Of a stretch of DNA of 53,084 nucleotides, positions 1 to 7,118 are shown piece by piece. Numbering within the stretch: position 1 is the first letter of the stretch; the number at the start of each line of letters is the position of its first letter. Under the pieces are notes generated by a model. It did not search any database and was not told where the DNA came from. It saw only the letters and a program-made list of their open reading frames with translations. The DNA comes from Deltaproteobacteria bacterium (lineage in GTDB: Bacteria > Desulfobacterota > Desulfobacteria > Desulfobacterales > Desulfosalsimonadaceae): the NCBI GenBank assembly GCA_013151835.1, contig JAADHK010000132.1, positions 1 to 53,084 on the forward strand, read 5' to 3'. The position numbers and the translations under genes were made by a program.

Positions 1-253
1 CATTTGCTTTTGCCTTAATTGCTATTCCCCGTAGTGAGGTTTGCTCGTATTGTCCCAGCCCTACTTTGTCCGGTACGAGTTTCCTTTGCGGGCTACGTAC
101 TTCCGTCAGGTCCTTCCCCGTGTAGTGGGCTTTCCCCACCTCTGAGTAGTATGCCTGATAAGACACCTCATCGGCATTTAGAGGCACGTCAGGTGTCCAA
201 CATGTCTCCCACCAGGGTTTTTGTTCCTTTGTTTCTGATGAATCAGGTTTCAC
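1..253 (-). CDS. Group II intron reverse transcriptase/maturase, N-terminal part (runs off left edge)
   Basis: The minus strand reads an open frame from a GTG at 253 to the window edge, with residues such as WWETCW, SYQAYYSEVGKAHYTGKDL and QTSLRGIAIKAKAN. These match what I know of the N-terminus of LtrA-like group II intron-encoded proteins, where QTSLRGIA-KAK precedes the reverse transcriptase fingers. The catalytic domain, maturase domain and stop lie outside the window, so intactness cannot be judged. The GTG start is a guess: the frame stays open a little further upstream but has no ATG there. The protein would promote splicing and retrohoming of the intron that encodes it. A second, decayed copy of the same kind of protein lies at 4617-5145. 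Confidence 0.7.
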   Translation of the reverse strand, partial: MKPDSSETKEQKPWWETCWTPDVPLNADEVSYQAYYSEVGKAHYTGKDLTEVRSPQRKLVPDKVGLGQYEQTSLRGIAIKAKAN

Positions 254-676
254 AGTTTCATAGTTCCTTAAACATCATCCATCCAGGACCAAATCTCCTG
301 GAACCTTTGGGGCTTCCCGAGTTCTACAGCGTATCTCTTCTCGCATGCCACGGCCTGAGGACTCCGGCGGATCTCCACATTCTCGCCATTTGTGAATGCT
401 TCTGTGTTGCCTTCGGCGCACGTTAAAACCCTCGGCATCCGCAATTGTAATTTCGAAGCTGTACCAGCACTTCAGGGTGCGCGACCACCCCTACGGCCTA
501 CAAGATTCTCTGCCTACGCTTAACCCATCTTGTTCGCTGTATTCATTCATACAACTCCGCCATGGGTCCAAGGCTCGATACGGGTGGGTGGCTAACCCTT
601 ACAGGAAATCATTACTGATCCCCTCCCGACAGGGACTTTCACCCTGCAAGATACGCCGAGCTTTGCTCGGCGCGAT
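1..676 (-). mobile_element. Group II intron, 5' domains and start of its ORF (partial)
   Basis: Read on the minus strand from about 676, the sequence opens with GCGCC and an inverted repeat (GCGCCGAGC / GCTCGGCG). A GGGTGAAAGTCCC block follows, typical of domain I of bacterial group II introns, then several hundred structured bases and the intron ORF. The stretch 396-603 is repeated almost base for base at 5155-5362, again next to reverse transcriptase sequence, which supports its being intron RNA rather than host coding sequence. The 5' boundary is estimated from the GCGCC motif, which departs from the usual GUGYG start. The 3' domains V and VI are outside the window. Confidence 0.7.
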
Positions 677-682
677 AACGCA

Positions 683-720
683 GCAAATCAGCTGATGCGT
701 CAGCGATCCGCTGAATTTGC
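683..720 (-). repeat. Imperfect palindrome abutting intron 5' end (attC-like or terminator)
   Basis: GCAAATCAGC (683-692) pairs with GCTGAATTTGC (710-720) except for one bulged base. It sits between the stop of the 733-1050 gene and the start of the group II intron. A bulged, imperfect stem just after a cassette gene's stop is what an attC site looks like, but the flanking core bases (GTTAT toward the intron) are only a partial fit. Several group II introns insert beside attC sites or terminator hairpins, and this arrangement would fit either. Confidence 0.4.
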
Positions 721-732
721 ATGGTGAGTACA

Positions 733-1050
733 TCATCCGCCAGTGATTGCTTTATCAATTTTGCCCTCGGCCAATAGCCTCTCAATTTGGCGGTGACGCC
801 GAAAATCTATTATGGCAGAACCAACGCAATAAAGACATGCCAAACAACAGAAACTGAAACTAAGCCAGTCGGACGGCTTACTAATAAAATCTATATATCC
901 GAAAACGATCATCATTACTGCGAATATAACTGCGGCTATACATCGGGCAAGCCAAGCATATTTCCCAATTGGTCTGCGACCAGCCGAATCCTCGATATAG
1001 CCCAGCACCCACCAAAGTAGTAAAACCATTGTTACAGTTATCTCAGCCAT
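733..1050 (-). CDS. Small membrane protein, unknown function (cassette-like)
   Basis: About 105 residues if started at the ATG at 1050 (MAEITVTMVLLLWW). A GTG at 1068 would add six residues. Three hydrophobic segments are visible: the N-terminal VTMVLLLWWVLGYIE, a middle stretch around CIAAVIFAVMMIVFGYI, and one near WLSFSFCCLACLYCVGSAI. A charged C-terminus (FRRHRQIERLLAEGKIDKAI) follows. It is probably an inner-membrane protein with a cytosolic C-terminal tail. I recognise no family. It is the last gene before the left group II intron and faces the same way as the other small genes of this island, as expected for an integron cassette. Confidence 0.6.
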   Translation of the reverse strand: MAEITVTMVLLLWWVLGYIEDSAGRRPIGKYAWLARCIAAVIFAVMMIVFGYIDFISKPSDWLSFSFCCLACLYCVGSAIIDFRRHRQIERLLAEGKIDKAITGG

Positions 1051-1177
1051 GCTCACGTCACCGGTCACCAGTGGCGAGAATATGATTTATATTACTGAAC
1101 CGAGAGCCTTTCAGATAGCAATAAATTCTAAAGTCCCGACTTACCGCTGTCTGCGTGCACTGGTTTGTCGATGATCT

Positions 1178-2509
1178 TCATCTCTGCCATCCTTCAATCT
1201 TGAAGATGCGTTCGGCAAGCTTACGGTCGGCTTTGCCTGAGTCTGGTTTGAACCAGACTTCAAAGCGAGCAGCATAAGGTTTACCCCAGTCACCTTCGTA
1301 AATCGTGAATCCGGCCTTTGCTCCAAACAGTTCAGAGGGGTCGGCTGACCATGTCATGCGAGTCTTCGATTTCGCTTCCAGCCTATCAACCGATAATGGC
1401 GTGCCTTTGGTGACCTCAAACGCCTTTAGATAAACTGAGCCAGGTTCGCCTGGGTTAAGCGAATAGACTACTACGTAAATACCTGGCTGCATCCCTGTAA
1501 GCAGTCGGAAGGGATGGTCATCGTCACCTGCAAGACGACTAGCCAACTGGCGGGATCTCGTTTTTGCTACTACTACTGCGTCTTCGGGGTTCTTTAAGAA
1601 CTCCGAAAACTCCTTTTCTAGAATAGTCACAGTGGCTTTGGTCACGCGCCGTTCAGGATTGCCGGATTGCTCAAAGATCTCCACCCACACTCCGCCACAC
1701 TCAATCATTACCCGACTCTCATGTAGGTTGTTACCCAAGCTCATCTCCGGCTTGACCGGCTTAGTTCCTTCATGAACATGTTGCACTGAGTATCTACTCC
1801 ACTGCTTGCGATCCAAACAGAGAAGACAGCGAGTCTGGAAGCCGGATTCGCCTCCGAATTCCGAGATGTAACCGTGCAATGTATCCCGCGGCTCCCCTCC
1901 GTAACTCCAGCGTCTAGCTGCAAAGCGATTTCCTTGCTCAATAAACACATGCCAGTCTGGAGACGCCTCGACATAGTCATAAAACGTGTCGGAGTAATCC
2001 TCCGATGCTTTGCGTAACGACGGCATGTTAGGCGTAAACTCAGTCACATCGTTGCCCGGTTCCGCCAGAGCCTTGCGGACAATGTCCTGAAATTCGTCGC
2101 TTCCTTTGGGTGGGTTTACGCCCCAAGAATCAGTTGCATCCGGATCGGGCTCGGCAATCTCAATGCCTTCAGGAATCGTCAAATTGTCTGCAAATCCGTC
2201 TTCACTCGGGCCAAACATGGTTGCGAGCATCAGAAAGCCAAAGGCGAAGACAGTGGCCGCACCACAGCCGAAAACGAAAAGAAGATTGATGACACCTGCC
2301 GCCCACCGTTTCTTAATCAAGTTCCATATTGATGCAGCAATGATTCCCAAGAATCCAAGGGCTGCAGTGCAGAACAGGACGTTGGTCAAAATGGCCAAGG
2401 GTTTCCACCGAGGGATTGCCGTAATCGTGAAGCCGCCGAGAAGGCAGATGTATGCAATCGCAGGCAACCACCAGCTATTGAAATATTGTGTCAGGATTCT
2501 CTTCATCAT
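1178..2509 (-). CDS. Membrane-anchored hypothetical protein (cassette-like)
   Basis: 443 residues. The N-terminal 110 hold three likely membrane spans (WWLPAIAYICLLGGFTITAI; LAILTNVLFCTAALGFLGII; VINLLFVFGCGAATVFAFGF). A large soluble domain of about 330 residues follows, containing a CLLCLDR motif and a PGIYVVVYSLNPGEPGSVYL stretch that looks like beta structure. There is no signal peptide beyond the first span, so the soluble part probably lies on one face of the inner membrane. No family is recognised. Start ATGATG at 2509 is preceded by GAGAG. The attC-like element at 2514-2581 lies just upstream and ends next to this start, which fits a gene at the beginning of a cassette. No clear attC was seen in the 127-bp gap after its stop. 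Confidence 0.65.
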   Translation of the reverse strand: MMKRILTQYFNSWWLPAIAYICLLGGFTITAIPRWKPLAILTNVLFCTAALGFLGIIAASIWNLIKKRWAAGVINLLFVFGCGAATVFAFGFLMLATMFGPSEDGFADNLTIPEGIEIAEPDPDATDSWGVNPPKGSDEFQDIVRKALAEPGNDVTEFTPNMPSLRKASEDYSDTFYDYVEASPDWHVFIEQGNRFAARRWSYGGEPRDTLHGYISEFGGESGFQTRCLLCLDRKQWSRYSVQHVHEGTKPVKPEMSLGNNLHESRVMIECGGVWVEIFEQSGNPERRVTKATVTILEKEFSEFLKNPEDAVVVAKTRSRQLASRLAGDDDHPFRLLTGMQPGIYVVVYSLNPGEPGSVYLKAFEVTKGTPLSVDRLEAKSKTRMTWSADPSELFGAKAGFTIYEGDWGKPYAARFEVWFKPDSGKADRKLAERIFKIEGWQR

Positions 2510-2513
2510 CTCT

Positions 2514-2581
2514 CATCGAACGTCAAAAGTGAGGCGCCGCTGACAGGGGGCGCGGCACCGATGCAAAACAGACCATCGAAC
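2514..2581 (-). other. Candidate attC recombination site
   Basis: This lies between the stop of the 2591-3169 gene and the start of the 1178-2509 gene. Its centre folds as GGTGCCGC / GCGGCGCC around CGCCCCCTGTCA, and GTTCGATG occurs at both ends as a direct repeat. Position, length and imperfect pairing fit an attC site, but the terminal GTTCGATG does not match the GTTRRRY core well, so this is the weakest of the three sites that lie between cassette genes. Confidence 0.35.
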
Positions 2582-2590
2582 TTCCAGCCA

Positions 2591-3169
2591 TCACTCAACT
2601 GCGCGGCGGGTCAGCGGTTGCCTCCACTGCCTTTCTGCATCCAAAACTGGTTGTAGTTCAATAATCAAGTCATGTTCTGATTCAATTTTTTCGATCTCTC
2701 TAAGACGAAATATCAAGTTTTGATTTTCAAATTGAGCAGGCAAATTGTCAAATGCATTTCTGAACATCTTAGAATTGTAATGCTTTGGTATTCGCCACGT
2801 CGTACCGTGTGATATTTCAGGGATGACATAAGTCATCTGAAGTTGACACAATGCATCAGCCGCTCGCTGTTGATCAAAGACTTTTGCAACAATAACGTTG
2901 TTTGGGACATGCAAGAATCTCCGATATGCCTCGAACCAATACTTAAGATCGAAAGCTGACCCCAATTTATGAACCACACCAGTCTTTCGGTCAACTAATA
3001 GCCCCGAACTCTCTACAAGTATATCTTCAAAGCGACCGGATTCATGGTGCTTCCGGACAGCAACAGCAAAATAAAATCCAAAATCACACTCTTGGGCATG
3101 GTCCTCAAGTACAAACATTTCATCTGATACATGTCTTTCGGCTAATTTTCTGGCTTCAGATATATTCAT
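2591..3169 (-). CDS. Imm35/YrhB-like domain protein (cassette-like)
   Basis: 192 residues. The first 85 (MNISEARKLAERHV, then ECDFGFYFAVAVRKH, SSGLLVDRKTGVVHKLGSAF) resemble the Imm35/YrhB family: an N-terminal helix, a D-x-G-W/F-Y-F strand, a pseudo-substrate strand with VDRKTG, and a final G-[ST]-A turn. The remaining 105 residues contain no motif I recognise. Imm35-type proteins are often found beside polymorphic toxins, but no toxin is adjacent, so immunity function is only a possibility. The gene starts shortly after the GTT of the attC-like site at 3183-3260 and is followed by another such site, giving a one-gene cassette layout. Confidence 0.6.
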   Translation of the reverse strand: MNISEARKLAERHVSDEMFVLEDHAQECDFGFYFAVAVRKHHESGRFEDILVESSGLLVDRKTGVVHKLGSAFDLKYWFEAYRRFLHVPNNVIVAKVFDQQRAADALCQLQMTYVIPEISHGTTWRIPKHYNSKMFRNAFDNLPAQFENQNLIFRLREIEKIESEHDLIIELQPVLDAERQWRQPLTRRAVE

Positions 3170-3182
3170 TTTTTATTTGCAG

Positions 3183-3260
3183 AACGCCTCGCATCACCGG
3201 CAAAATAAAGCTGCAGAGCGAAGCGGCGCAGCTTTATTTTGTCCGAGTGCATTCGTTATG
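3183..3260 (-). other. attC-like integron recombination site
   Basis: On the minus strand the site runs from CATAACGAATGCACTCGG through a long central stem (AAAATAAAGCTGC pairing with GCAGCTTTATTTT) to GGTGATGCGAGGCGTT. The outer arms pair imperfectly with unpaired bases, the inner stem is nearly perfect, and the ends carry AAC and GTT cores. It begins about a dozen bases after the stop of the VOC gene and ends 14 bp before the next ATG, as in integron cassettes. Confidence 0.65.
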
Positions 3261-3271
3261 TGTTTTTTTTG

Positions 3272-3649
3272 TCATCCCATTGGTGTACATATTTCTACTA
3301 TTGTTCCAAAATCATCTCCAACATAAGCAACAACTTGTCCCCAAGGCTTTGTTTCCGGCTTCTTGATTTCCTTTGCTCCATTCGAAAGTGCTTTCTCAAA
3401 TGCTCCCTGAACATCATCTGTCGAAAAAGCAATTCCAAAGCAATTCTTTGTACCCTTTAATGCGTCTATGCCAATATTCATTTTTAGCATTTCATTGTTC
3501 GCAAATGCCAAAGTTGTTTCTCCGCTTTCCATCTCAGCGTACATATTTGATTCGTGAATAAACTTAGTTTTCATATCAAATGCTTTTTCATAAAATTTTG
3601 TCGCTTTAACAGCGTCTTCAACATAGATGATTACATAATTTAACTTCAT
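3272..3649 (-). CDS. VOC (glyoxalase/bleomycin-resistance fold) family protein
   Basis: 125 residues, the usual size for a single VOC module of two beta-alpha-beta-beta-beta repeats. Visible hallmarks are MKLNYVIIYVEDAVKATKFY at the start, FGIAFSTDDVQGAFEKALSN beginning the second half, and the closing WGQVVAYVGDDFGTIVEIC, where the final Glu is a usual metal ligand. The usual first-position metal ligand His is replaced by Asn (KLNYV), so metal binding is uncertain. The substrate cannot be inferred. Its ATG overlaps the stop of the TfoX-domain gene by 4 bp, so the two probably form one two-gene cassette, ended by the attC-like site at 3183-3260. Confidence 0.8.
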   Translation of the reverse strand: MKLNYVIIYVEDAVKATKFYEKAFDMKTKFIHESNMYAEMESGETTLAFANNEMLKMNIGIDALKGTKNCFGIAFSTDDVQGAFEKALSNGAKEIKKPETKPWGQVVAYVGDDFGTIVEICTPMG

Positions 3650-3993
3650 CTTGATTTTTTCCTTGTTTTCTTTTTCTTGGGTTTTGGTTTGGGAGTCGGC
3701 AGTTCTTCCTCTGTTATGCTTATTAAATTGCTAATCCAATCTCTGTTTTCAATTTGATCTTCAATAAGAAAAGATGGCTTTGCTCCTTTATATGGTGGCT
3801 TTTCAACAATTTCGCCAATAAATAACTTCCCGGCTTTCGTTGGTTTCACAAAGAGTTGATTATCACACATAAGAGCTACGACTTTATCATTGCAATAGAG
3901 TGCATATTCGCCAAACATTTTTCTGTATCGGATTACCCCGGCATTTTGTATCTGCTCTACAACAAATTCGACAAAACTTAAATCTGATGCCAT
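3646..3993 (-). CDS. TfoX N-terminal domain protein
   Basis: 115 residues. It contains the hallmarks of the TfoX/Sxy N-terminal domain: FVEFVVEQIQNAG, RKMFGEYALYCNDKVVALM, LFVKPTKAGK and PPYKGAKPSFLIED. The C-terminal 20 residues are a lysine-rich tail (PKPKPKKKKTRKKSR). Stand-alone copies of this domain are common in accessory DNA and are not shown to control competence; the function here is unknown. The start ATG at 3993 has AAAAGGATACTAAA upstream, a plausible ribosome-binding site, and follows directly on the attC-like site at 4020-4076. The gene is translationally coupled to the VOC gene by a 4-bp overlap. Confidence 0.8.
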   Translation of the reverse strand: MASDLSFVEFVVEQIQNAGVIRYRKMFGEYALYCNDKVVALMCDNQLFVKPTKAGKLFIGEIVEKPPYKGAKPSFLIEDQIENRDWISNLISITEEELPTPKPKPKKKKTRKKSR

Positions 3994-4019
3994 TTTAGTA
4001 TCCTTTTCTTACATATAAT

Positions 4020-4076
4020 CATAACGATGCGCTCAGCCGCCGAGGATACGAGGTCGGCTGAAGCGGCAAGGTTATG
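4020..4076 (-). other. attC-like integron recombination site
   Basis: A 57-bp imperfect palindrome, on the minus strand CATAACCTTGCCGCTTCAGC ... GCTGAGCGCATCGTTATG. The ends CATAAC and GTTATG are exact inverses. The inner arms (CAGCCGACCTCG / CGGCGGCTG) pair with bulges, and the loop is short. It starts 5 bp after the stop of the 4081-4494 gene and ends close to the start of the TfoX gene. This is the best attC candidate in the window. Confidence 0.75.
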
Positions 4077-4080
4077 TGAT

Positions 4081-4494
4081 TTACCAATCTACCGTGAAGA
4101 CTTCACCTTTACCGTAACCTCTTTCACATGTGGCACAATATAGTTCAGAGGATAGCGGTGAATGGCACTTCTGGCAGAAAAGGACACCCGTTGTTTTATG
4201 TTTCCATACACCAGGATCGGAAATCCAATCGCATGTCTGGAAATTTATCTCTAACTTTCGTTTTTTATGGAGAATAATCAATGATAACAGGAGCACAAGC
4301 GATAGCAATAATAGTTCTATCAATGTTTTGTATAGCCACTGTTTGGGTAATGACGATACATATGAGAAAACAGGGTTTTTCTGAGAAAGAGATAGCACTG
4401 TACCAGATAGGAGCAGCCACAGTATCCATATTGTTCTCAGTGTTTTTGATTTTATCCAAAGTTCTATTATTGATTTCATGTTTTCACCACACAT
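4081..4494 (-). CDS. Membrane protein with C-terminal zinc ribbon (cassette-like)
   Basis: 137 residues from the ATG at 4494. An alternative start at the sixth residue (4479, MKSIIELW) has GGTG a few bases upstream and may be preferable. Two hydrophobic helices (TLRTIWILWLLLSGTVLSLS and TLIELLLLSLVLLLSLIIL) are followed by a positively charged stop-transfer HKKRK. The C-terminal domain has two paired cysteines, CQKCHSPL and CATCERGYG, giving a probable zinc ribbon on the cytosolic face. No family is recognised. It is the most promoter-proximal gene of the array. A TATAAT box within a palindrome lies just upstream, so this promoter may serve the whole array. Confidence 0.65.
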   Translation of the reverse strand: MCGENMKSIIELWIKSKTLRTIWILWLLLSGTVLSLSQKNPVFSYVSSLPKQWLYKTLIELLLLSLVLLLSLIILHKKRKLEINFQTCDWISDPGVWKHKTTGVLFCQKCHSPLSSELYCATCERGYGKGEVFTVDW

Positions 4495-4501
4495 AACATA
4501 G

Positions 4502-4607
4502 ATTATACGTCATGACGTAATTTTCAAAAAACAATGTTTTTTTCAACGTTGATTATTGAAAAGCCGATTAAAATCAATTAATAAGGGGATTACATCGTGA
4601 CGTATAA
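4502..4607 (-). promoter_or_regulatory. Promoter region with paired operator-like palindromes
   Basis: Two 19-bp sites, 4503-4521 and 4589-4607, match each other in inverted orientation at 17 of 19 positions. Each is itself near-palindromic (TACGTCATGACGTA at 4506-4519 is perfect). On the minus strand a perfect TATAAT (4502-4507) overlaps the promoter-proximal site and lies just before the 4494 start. No good -35 is present at 17 bp. The pair could be operator sites for a repressor of the array, integrase-binding sites of an attI region, or terminal repeats of a 105-bp foldback element. Confidence 0.4.
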
Positions 4608-4616
4608 TTAATTATG

Positions 4617-5145
4617 ATCAGCCTTTCCGGCAGAGCCTTGTAAAACCGGATAGCATCACCGCGATATTGAAACGCGCAGATAAAATCGTCTGCGTATCAC
4701 AGTATCATTGCAGCACCCATATAGTGGGGCTTCACGACCTTATCAACCCACAGATAAAGCACAAAATGCAGGTACACGTTTGCCAACGCGGGAGACACGA
4801 TTCCCCCTTGCGGTGTTCCTGTTTCAGGATGAATGATTTTGCCATCCGTATCCAGAATACCGGCTTTCAACTATTTTTGAATCAGGTTCAGAAAAGCCTC
4901 ATCGTCGATTCTTTCCTTGAGCATTCGAAGCGGCCACTTGTGATCCATATTGTCGAAAAACCCTTTAATATCGGACTCAACAATATACCCGAATTTTCCA
5001 AACGGCAAGGTTAAAGCGCAGATCATCGATCGCTTCAGTTGGGTCTGTATCCGTAGCTGCTTTCCAGAAAATCCGCTTCAAAGACTGCCGACAAAAGCCG
5101 GGCAAAGGCCAGTTGCAACAACCTGTCTTCAAGCACCGGTAGAGA
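4617..5145 (-). pseudogene. Decayed group II intron reverse transcriptase
   Basis: Minus-strand reading gives clear reverse transcriptase core pieces: FGYIVESDIKGFFDNMDH, then ETGTPQGGIVSPALANVYLH, then the catalytic YADDFICAFQYRGDA. The frame is broken by an in-frame TAG (4871-4873) before LKAGILDTDG and a TGA (4697-4699) directly before YADD. Further upstream, pieces FQDLYRCL and LEDRLLQLAFARLL are joined out of order of length and in different frames, showing internal deletions. The thumb and maturase domains are missing. It cannot make an active enzyme. It belongs to the same group II intron class as the copy at the left edge. Confidence 0.85.
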
Positions 5146-5362
5146 TCCTGAAAAATGCTTCTGTTTTGCCTTCGGCGCACGTTAAAACCCTCGGGCATCC
5201 GCAATTGCTATTTCAAAGCTGTACCAGCACTTCAGGGAGCGCGGTCTCCCCTGCGGCCTAAAAGATTCTCTGCCTACGCTTAACCCCTCTTGTTCGCTGC
5301 TCAAAATACAGGCAACTCCGTCATGGGTCCAAGGCTCGATACCAGTGGGCGGCTAAGCCTTC
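4617..5362 (-). mobile_element. Group II intron remnant
   Basis: 5155-5362 repeats, with only scattered changes, the intron 5'-domain sequence at 396-603. The match stops at both ends: the intron's first ~75 bases (the GCGCC and GTGAAAGTCC blocks of the left copy) are absent, and at 5155 the sequence jumps straight into reverse transcriptase codons. No domain V/VI is recognisable at the 4617 end. The element is therefore truncated at both ends and internally deleted. It separates the cassette-like genes from the conserved nadB region. Confidence 0.8.
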
Positions 5363-5444
5363 TAATCTCAAACAGATTGCCCGGATGATCATAGTGTCCA
5401 TGGGTAATAACAATCAAATAGAAAGGCTTTTTACGGCAACACCG
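5363..5444. other. Short spacer between intron remnant and nadB stop
   Basis: Eighty bases with no gene. The end of intron homology gives way to AT-rich sequence; the weak inverted repeat CGGTGTTGCCG followed by TAAAAAG next to the nadB stop is the only structure and is too short to call a terminator. Confidence 0.4.
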
Positions 5445-7118
5445 TCAGCCCACAAAGGGCCGCCGCAAGACAGTATCCTTTTTCCACCTCTCGTCTTTTT
5501 CCGGGTACGCGATATTGTAATGAAGCCCCCGGCTTTCCTTTCTGTGCGAGGCGCACCGGATGATCAGTTCCGCCACCAGGGCGATATTTCTTAGCTCGAT
5601 CAGGTCGGGCGTGACCTTGAAATTCCAGTAATATTCCCGTATCTCATCCGCGATAATTTCAATGCGCCGGGCTGCCCGGGCCAGACGCTTGTCCGACCGG
5701 ACGATCCCCACGTAATTCCACATGAGCATCCGTATTTCGTTCCATGTATGCGAGATGACGATGGCCTCGTCGCTGTCTGTGGCGCCGGTATCGTCCCACG
5801 GGGGGATATCTTCCTTAGACCTGGAAACGAAATCCTTTGCCTTCATCCCGGACACGATGTCGGCCGCGGCCTGGTGTGCATAGACCAGCCCTTCCAGAAG
5901 TGAGTTGGAAGCCAGACGGTTGGCGCCGTGCAGCCCGGTGCAGGCGGTCTCGCCAATGGCATATAGCCGGGAAATATTGGTCCTTCCGAAAATACCGGTC
6001 GCAACGCCCCCGGACATATAATGGGCTGCCGGGACCACGGGGATCGGGGTTTTGGTCATATCGAAACCAAAAGATAAACAATTTTCATAAAGGTACGGGA
6101 ACCTGGTCTTTATGAAATTTTCATCCTTGTGGGTGATATCGAGAAAAACCGATTCATCCCCGCTTTTCTTAAGCTCCGTGTCAATGGCCCGGGCCACCAC
6201 GTCCCGGCAGGCCAGGTCACGGTCCGGAGAGTATTGCTCCATGAATGCCCGCCCGTTTGCGTCACGCAGGATACCTCCCTCGCCCCGGACGGTTTCGGAA
6301 ATCAAAAAATTCTTTGCCTTTGGATGAAAGAGACAGGTGGGATGAAACTGCATGAACTCAAGGTTTGCGACTGACGCTCCGGCCCGGTATGCCATTGCAA
6401 TACCGTCACCCGTTGCAACGTCCGGGTTGCTGGTATAGGCGTAAACCTTCCCGCATCCACCCGTGGCAAGCACGGTAAAATCGGCGAGAAAGGTCTTGAT
6501 CTTTCCCGTAGCCCGCTCCAGAACATAGGCACCGCAGCAATAGTCCTCGTGGGTTGCAACCACGAGCCCGCGTCTCAGGCGTGTGGAACGGGTGATCAGG
6601 TCAACGGCGACATGGTCTTCATAAACACTTATATTTTCATGTTCTTTCACCCGGCGGACAAGTGCATCCTCAACAGCCCGGCCGGTTATATCATCTGAAC
6701 GAACGATGCGGTTGAAACAATGTCCCCCTTCACGGCCCATATCCAAATGCAAATCAACGTCCACATTAACACCCACATCATTGCCGGATGCGCCGTCACC
6801 ATTCGCTTCTTTCCGGTTGAACCCCACGCCCAAGTCGATCAACTCCCGTATCCTGTCGGGGGCATTTTTCACGACCATGGATACCACGCCCTCGTCGCAC
6901 AGCCCGTCCCCGGCGGCCAGGGTGTCCTTGATATGAAGGTCGAACGAGTCGTCCGGGTCCATGACGGCGGCGATACCACCCTGGGCATGGGCCGTGTTTG
7001 AATCCGCGATTTTCTTCTTTGTTACAATGGCCACGCGCCCATGGGGCGATAGCTTAAGGGCAAGGGTAAGCCCGGCAACACCGCTTCCGATAATCAGAAA
7101 ATCAAACTCCAGTTCCAT
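5445..7118 (-). CDS. nadB: L-aspartate oxidase
   Basis: 557 residues, close to the usual 530-550. It oxidises L-aspartate to iminoaspartate using FAD and oxygen or fumarate, the first step of quinolinate and NAD synthesis, in the cytosol. The Rossmann FAD motif DFLIIGSGVAGLTLALKLS is at residues 6-24. TAHAQGGIAAV, EFMQFHPTCL, SETVRGEGGILRD, HYMSGGVATG and GLHGANRLASNSLLEGLVY are flavin and substrate-site motifs shared with fumarate reductase flavoproteins. The C-terminal SRGLHYNIAYPE is typical of NadB and separates it from SdhA/FrdA. GGAG lies 8 bp before the ATG. No nadA or nadC is nearby. Upstream genes are an SH3 protein and a CooC-like ATPase, so the context is not an NAD operon. Confidence 0.95.
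   Translation of the reverse strand: MELEFDFLIIGSGVAGLTLALKLSPHGRVAIVTKKKIADSNTAHAQGGIAAVMDPDDSFDLHIKDTLAAGDGLCDEGVVSMVVKNAPDRIRELIDLGVGFNRKEANGDGASGNDVGVNVDVDLHLDMGREGGHCFNRIVRSDDITGRAVEDALVRRVKEHENISVYEDHVAVDLITRSTRLRRGLVVATHEDYCCGAYVLERATGKIKTFLADFTVLATGGCGKVYAYTSNPDVATGDGIAMAYRAGASVANLEFMQFHPTCLFHPKAKNFLISETVRGEGGILRDANGRAFMEQYSPDRDLACRDVVARAIDTELKKSGDESVFLDITHKDENFIKTRFPYLYENCLSFGFDMTKTPIPVVPAAHYMSGGVATGIFGRTNISRLYAIGETACTGLHGANRLASNSLLEGLVYAHQAAADIVSGMKAKDFVSRSKEDIPPWDDTGATDSDEAIVISHTWNEIRMLMWNYVGIVRSDKRLARAARRIEIIADEIREYYWNFKVTPDLIELRNIALVAELIIRCASHRKESRGLHYNIAYPEKDERWKKDTVLRRPFVG

Follow-up and report, generated by a model that had tools for sequence, protein, structure and literature searches.

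A group II intron family outside the group IIC-attC lineage that probably favours the sense strand of integron attC sites

To our knowledge, introns in integrons are known almost solely as antisense group IIC elements that part the cassettes from their promoter. These group IIC-attC introns (S.ma.I2 and its relatives) insert beside the attC hairpin and have no endonuclease domain, as is the case for the family described here. Unlike this family, they use the other strand, enter at TTGT|T in the R'' box, lie antisense and belong to another RNA family and another reverse transcriptase class. Introns on the same strand as the cassettes were found, in the literature searched, only in one paper and in a case cited there. 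UHB.I2 is a group IIB1/CL1 intron in an integron array from a soda-lake metagenome (Sonbol and Siam 2021, PMC7923331). Compared by its published description, it resembles our family in lying in cassette sense directly after an attC, in standing outside group IIC and in its endonuclease-less protein. It differs in being one case, for which the authors report a poorly conserved 5' exon and call the role of the hairpin speculative (PMC7923331). A further likeness is its unusual 5' end, UUGCG; introns of our family start with UCGCG, GCGCG or GAGCG. The case cited in that paper also uses the top strand of an attC in the orientation of the cassettes but, as far as it is summarised there, is described as a group IIC intron with a single unusual target. 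In Halorhodospira halochloris, a CALIN contains H.ha.F1 and H.ha.F2, two truncated group IIB introns of class E (PMC7923331). They are alike in being non-IIC introns in a CALIN, with an attC-like structure upstream and decayed copies, but are 5'-truncated, so that their insertion point is undefined. In the literature searched, which covered few subscription journals, we found neither a conserved CGTTA target nor an intron family of this kind described. A sense intron in an array has been sighted before; what is new is a rule for the whole family, its exact site and the matching EBS1.

The window, that is the whole stretch of DNA analysed (53,084 nucleotides), is one contig (C16) of a 3.3 Mb genome in 147 contigs. 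Read on the minus strand from nadB (5445-7118), it carries a decayed group II intron, six ORFs and then an intron that extends from 675 onward off the contig. The six same-strand genes of the original prediction were all recovered as minus-strand ORFs. The first, at 4081-4494, encodes a 137-aa membrane or zinc-ribbon-like protein (ORF list and Pfam search). It is followed by a 115-aa TfoX N-terminal domain protein at 3646-3993 (PF04993, E 1e-10) and a 125-aa protein of the glyoxalase/bleomycin-resistance fold at 3272-3649 (PF00903, E 3e-15). These two genes overlap by 4 bases and were therefore taken as one unit. Next come a 192-aa protein at 2591-3169 with a weak Imm35-like match (E 2e-4, below the cut-off), a 443-aa protein at 1178-2509 and a 111-aa membrane-like protein at 733-1068, the stop of which lies just before an attC-like hairpin. 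The last two were assigned to no family by the ORF list and family searches. Such a content (glyoxalase fold, TfoX N-terminal domain, a weak Imm35-like match and three unknowns) is ordinary for cassettes.

Sites of the attC type were sought with a covariance model and with a structural scan. To build the model, attC of annotated class 1 integrons were combined with those found in relatives' integrons, and the sites of the window were left out; model R1 comprised 16 sites with a shortened loop and is weak for long-loop attC. The scan used R'' and R' boxes and a long hairpin, with a paired fraction of at least 0.67 and an energy of at most -0.40 per base. A site of 59 bases at 4019-4077 (minus strand; R'' ACATAAC, R' GTTATGA) was detected by both methods and was the top covariance-model match in the 53-kb window (18.6 bits, E 0.035). 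The 83-base site at 3179-3261 (minus strand; R'' ACATAAC, R' GTTCTGC) was found by the structural scan and is missed by the model because of its long loop. Within 1-5400, solely these two passed both thresholds. At the same thresholds, the scan gave zero sites in the other 47.7 kb and zero in 40 shuffles of the 5.4 kb. Boxes, spacer, stem and extrahelical base of both sites agree with attC. They start no more than about 10 bases past a stop and end ahead of the next gene, the placement that had been predicted for the palindromes.

A third hairpin, at 676-731 (minus strand), bears the intron in its R' box, with CGTTA at 676-680. Its inner stem (CAAAT(T)CAGC / GCTGATTTG) is present, the R'' box is degenerate and the covariance model gave only 2.9 bits. 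The arms are those of attC sites on two other contigs of the same genome, C19 and C50 (GCAAATTCAGC ... GCTGATTTG ... CGTTA). Hence, it is probably an attC damaged in R''. As the covariance model misses both this hairpin and the site at 3179-3261, the evidence for these two comes from the structural scan and from comparison. The original prediction had palindromes separating the genes, which was true only in part. Beside the two canonical sites, no attC was found in the gene gap 1068-1178, and at 3646/3649 the genes overlap. The gap at 2510-2590 was considered as a further attC; it holds a hairpin only and was left unproven. An AT-rich inverted repeat at 4490-4617 (minus strand), ending GTTATGTG and adjoining the first cassette gene, is a weak candidate of unproven attC status. 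Its arms, ATTATACGTCA...TGACGTATAAT, could form a long-stem attC or belong to another element.

The two gene gaps without attC would agree with a plain operon in which the palindromes serve as terminators or are repeats that arose by chance. This explanation is highly improbable given the close fit of the two sites to attC and their position between genes, the lack of any site as good in the 47.7 kb or in the shuffles, and the presence of an integron integrase and canonical attC elsewhere in the genome. With at least two attC in one orientation (3179-3261 and 4019-4077, plus the hairpin at 676-731), the segment 676-4617 is an integrase-less, CALIN-like cassette cluster.

The cluster had originally been described as lacking an integrase. 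This holds for the window, in which no integron integrase was found and where the contig ends inside the intron, but not for the genome. A complete integron integrase is encoded on another contig (G000:C21:371-1315; 438 bits against a cut-off of 265) and is about 46% identical to IntI1. The array of this integrase is unreadable because C21 reaches only some 330 bases upstream of the gene. The upstream stretch (G000:C21:1-328) holds an ORF fragment, cut by the contig end, which we take to resemble part of an NhaA-type antiporter. Elsewhere in the genome, on contigs C5, C19 and C50, the same covariance model picked out three canonical attC with 25.8-29.1 bits. Since an intact integrase lies on another contig, the locus is probably a local CALIN and not an integron without an integrase.

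The intron at the contig end occupies 1-675 of the minus strand. It represents the 5' part (domain I to IV) of a group II intron, starts with TCGCGCCGAGC and has a 5' edge common to its relatives. The predicted group II nature was borne out by RF02005, which matched with 101 bits at 352-615 of the minus strand. An intron had been placed directly beyond a palindrome at 683-720; it sits in the R' box of the hairpin with the degenerate R''. The 3' end of the intron, including domains V/VI, lies off the contig. At 2-253 (minus strand), an N-terminal remnant of an intron-encoded reverse transcriptase is open at the contig end; it shares a motif with the N-terminal region of the intron-encoded proteins of relatives (e.g. 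L091), and a Pfam search of it gave zero matches. The intron shares 94% identity with a copy in another genome (G283) that is about 763 bases long and has no ORF; it is therefore probably ORF-less and shortened itself. On the other side of the cluster, the decayed intron of the same class was found as predicted. It extends over about 4607-5376 (minus strand) and consists of the 5' part, with the first ~75 bases and the 3' end missing, and a broken reverse transcriptase at 4619-4987. RF02005 matched this remnant at 5126-5376 with 45 bits, just under the family cut-off, and it is 88% identical to the left intron across 208 bases. When the same genome was searched for an intact reverse transcriptase of the intron family, the broken one was the sole match. 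Judged by these sequences, the introns in the window have probably lost self-mobility; an assembly gap could hide a helper.

Within the order, BLAST detected the intron in 21 of 291 genomes, and in nearly all copies the similarity stops at one point near window 676-680. Presence of an integrase showed a weak trend with presence of the intron across the 291 genomes (14/21 vs 128/270, p 0.07). A pattern of 34 conserved bases near the 5' end was run once over 84,980 species genomes and gave 42 stretches. They derive from Desulfobacterota (Desulfosarcina, Desulfoluna, Desulfobacter, Desulfatibia), Gammaproteobacteria (Thiodiazotropha, Chromatiaceae) and Nitrosomonas marina. A plasmid search with the reverse transcriptase of the family returned only distant proteins (<60% identity). 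Conserved ribozyme domains of a group II intron were recognised: RF02005 matched the window copy and relatives, and RF00029 (domains V/VI) matched the full-length copies L103, L105 and L128. The reverse transcriptase/maturase is present in relatives (TIGR04416 over the cut-off, PF00078, PF08388) and lacks an endonuclease. Copies of about 700-760 bases that have lost the reverse transcriptase ORF were seen at L095, L096, L107, L108 and L152. At L122 (JAHXIV010000077.1, 3579-3709), the 3' end of one intron (CCTACCGTGAGA) abuts the first base of another (TCGCGCC), head-to-tail and without an exon. At L150 (JAESPE010000201.1), a second intron copy is carried by an attC-like hairpin that follows immediately on the 3' end of a decayed intron.

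Insertion sites were compared in a set of 51 distinct upstream exons, mostly from Desulfobacterota and Gammaproteobacteria, that combined the pattern stretches with earlier loci. Positions -5 to -1 of the 5' exon read CGTTA (C 45, G 47, T 46, T 49 and A 49 of 51; relatedness uncorrected). Two kinds of intron 3' end were seen in full or ORF-less copies, ...CCTACCACGAC| in one lineage and ...CCTACCG(C/T)GAGA| in the other; they were taken from the alignment by eye, so that a one-base shift is possible in single copies. The 3' exon then gives GGC, TGC, GAC or AGC in many copies, which restores an R' box GTTARRY. From the 5' exon, the 3' exon and the downstream orientation, we place the insertion point within the R' box, at GTTA|RRY on the strand that is sense for the cassettes. 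The next downstream ORF was sense to the intron in 20 cases and antisense in 2 (p 1e-4; relatedness uncorrected); for upstream ORFs the ratio was 27 sense to 11 antisense. Intron and cassettes of the window also point the same way, as had been noted. This orientation was originally regarded as unusual. It is opposite to that of IIC-attC introns, yet it is no oddity of the locus but a rule of the intron family.

Many upstream exons are textbook attC in cassette sense (e.g. L103, L092, L119, L132 and L144). An attC-like hairpin was present upstream of 23/40 GTTA sites vs 86/381 control CGTTA from the same loci (p 8e-6; relatedness uncorrected). Hairpin and R'' box together were found at 11/40 insertions vs 23/381 controls (p 8e-5; relatedness likewise uncorrected), and hairpin enrichment by another measure gave p 2e-7. 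About half of the insertion sites show no clear hairpin by the measures used, and L152, L125 and L126 seem to be ordinary sequence with CGTTA. Thus attC is a preference and not a rule.

The loop of a domain I hairpin reads UUUUAACGU and contains UAACG, the predicted EBS1 (421-425 of the window, minus strand). It complements CGTTA perfectly in 23 of the 37 copies with an alignable loop; several decayed copies have fewer pairs. Two copies carry matching changes on both sides, a CGCTA exon with a UAGCG loop (L115) and, in Nitrosomonas marina, a CATTA exon with a UAATG loop (L142). A third (L102) forms four of five pairs to GGGAA. All three are at non-attC sites, and we read them as compensatory evidence for the predicted EBS1-IBS1 pairing. 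Complementarity of UAACG to the CGTTA of the R' box would account for the preference of the family for attC. The intron could also be an ordinary homing-type group II intron with a short target containing CGTTA, which hits attC since the R' box has CGTTA and attC are frequent, the hairpin playing no part. EBS1 complementarity alone accounts for the exon consensus, the retargeted copies follow their EBS1, and several insertions are found at a CGTTA that has no hairpin. However, attC-like hairpins are 2.5-fold commoner upstream of insertions than upstream of control CGTTA in the same loci, even though further attC of the arrays may be among these controls. A homing-type intron indifferent to the hairpin is therefore unlikely.

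Plasmid integrons served for comparison with the known lineage. The IIC-attC intron ORFs of L162, L164 and L166 are antisense to the cassettes. In the clearest case, L162, the intron is preceded by the aadA1 attC in its bottom strand, ...GAACGAATTGT|. One could suppose that our family is a member of this lineage that has turned to the other strand, as the general target (attC, after the hairpin) and the endonuclease-less protein are alike. However, the plasmid introns match RF02001 and RF01998, whereas the window family matches RF02005. The reverse transcriptases of the family are 28-34% identical to those of class C and IIC-attC introns, while the plasmid IIC-attC protein shares at least ~43% with class C members. 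Finally, the insertions are at CGTTA|RRY in sense and not at the TTGT|T of the bottom strand in antisense. Because of the different RNA family and the low reverse transcriptase identity, the window family is not IIC-attC, and a mere change of strand is hardly credible.

We consider it likely that a group II intron family outside class C entered the cassette array and that this family favours sense-strand attC through EBS1/CGTTA pairing, probably helped by the hairpin. The insertion point, the strand, the complementarity of EBS1, the common orientation and the decayed and ORF-less copies can be read directly from the sequences, whereas reverse splicing, reverse transcription and splicing in the cell are inferred. 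The excised intron RNA and the endonuclease-less reverse transcriptase/maturase would recognise the attC strand that reads like the cassette genes. Its EBS1 would pair with the last base before the R' box and the first four bases of the box, the hairpin just upstream probably aiding recognition. Reverse splicing would then occur between GTTA and RRY. By analogy with endonuclease-less group II introns in general, it may use single-stranded or hairpin attC during replication and be followed by replication-primed reverse transcription. The ORF-less copies would need protein in trans, and the window copy is probably one of them; the many short ORF-less copies suggest such movement. After insertion, the intron would precede the next cassette as a leader in sense direction. 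Should it splice in the cell, the transcript would regain GTTARRY and the next gene would be read normally. The integron integrase cuts attC at G|TT of R'. An intron at GTTA| would thus fall within the next cassette and could be moved together with it.

The intron family is widespread and little described, and it repeatedly lands at one exact spot of attC. Tentatively, it may represent a separate group II lineage outside IIC-attC, specialised on the attC sense strand by retaining an EBS1 that reads the R' box. Being spliceable and placed just within the start of the next cassette, it would leave the array unsilenced and could be carried along when the integron integrase moves that cassette. 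If this is true, cassette arrays would have a spliceable passenger in a second lineage, on the other strand and in sense, and attC would have been adopted as an intron target more than once. It would also offer, at cassette junctions, a natural case of target changes that follow changes of EBS1, and the published same-orientation intron UHB.I2 might fall under a testable rule.
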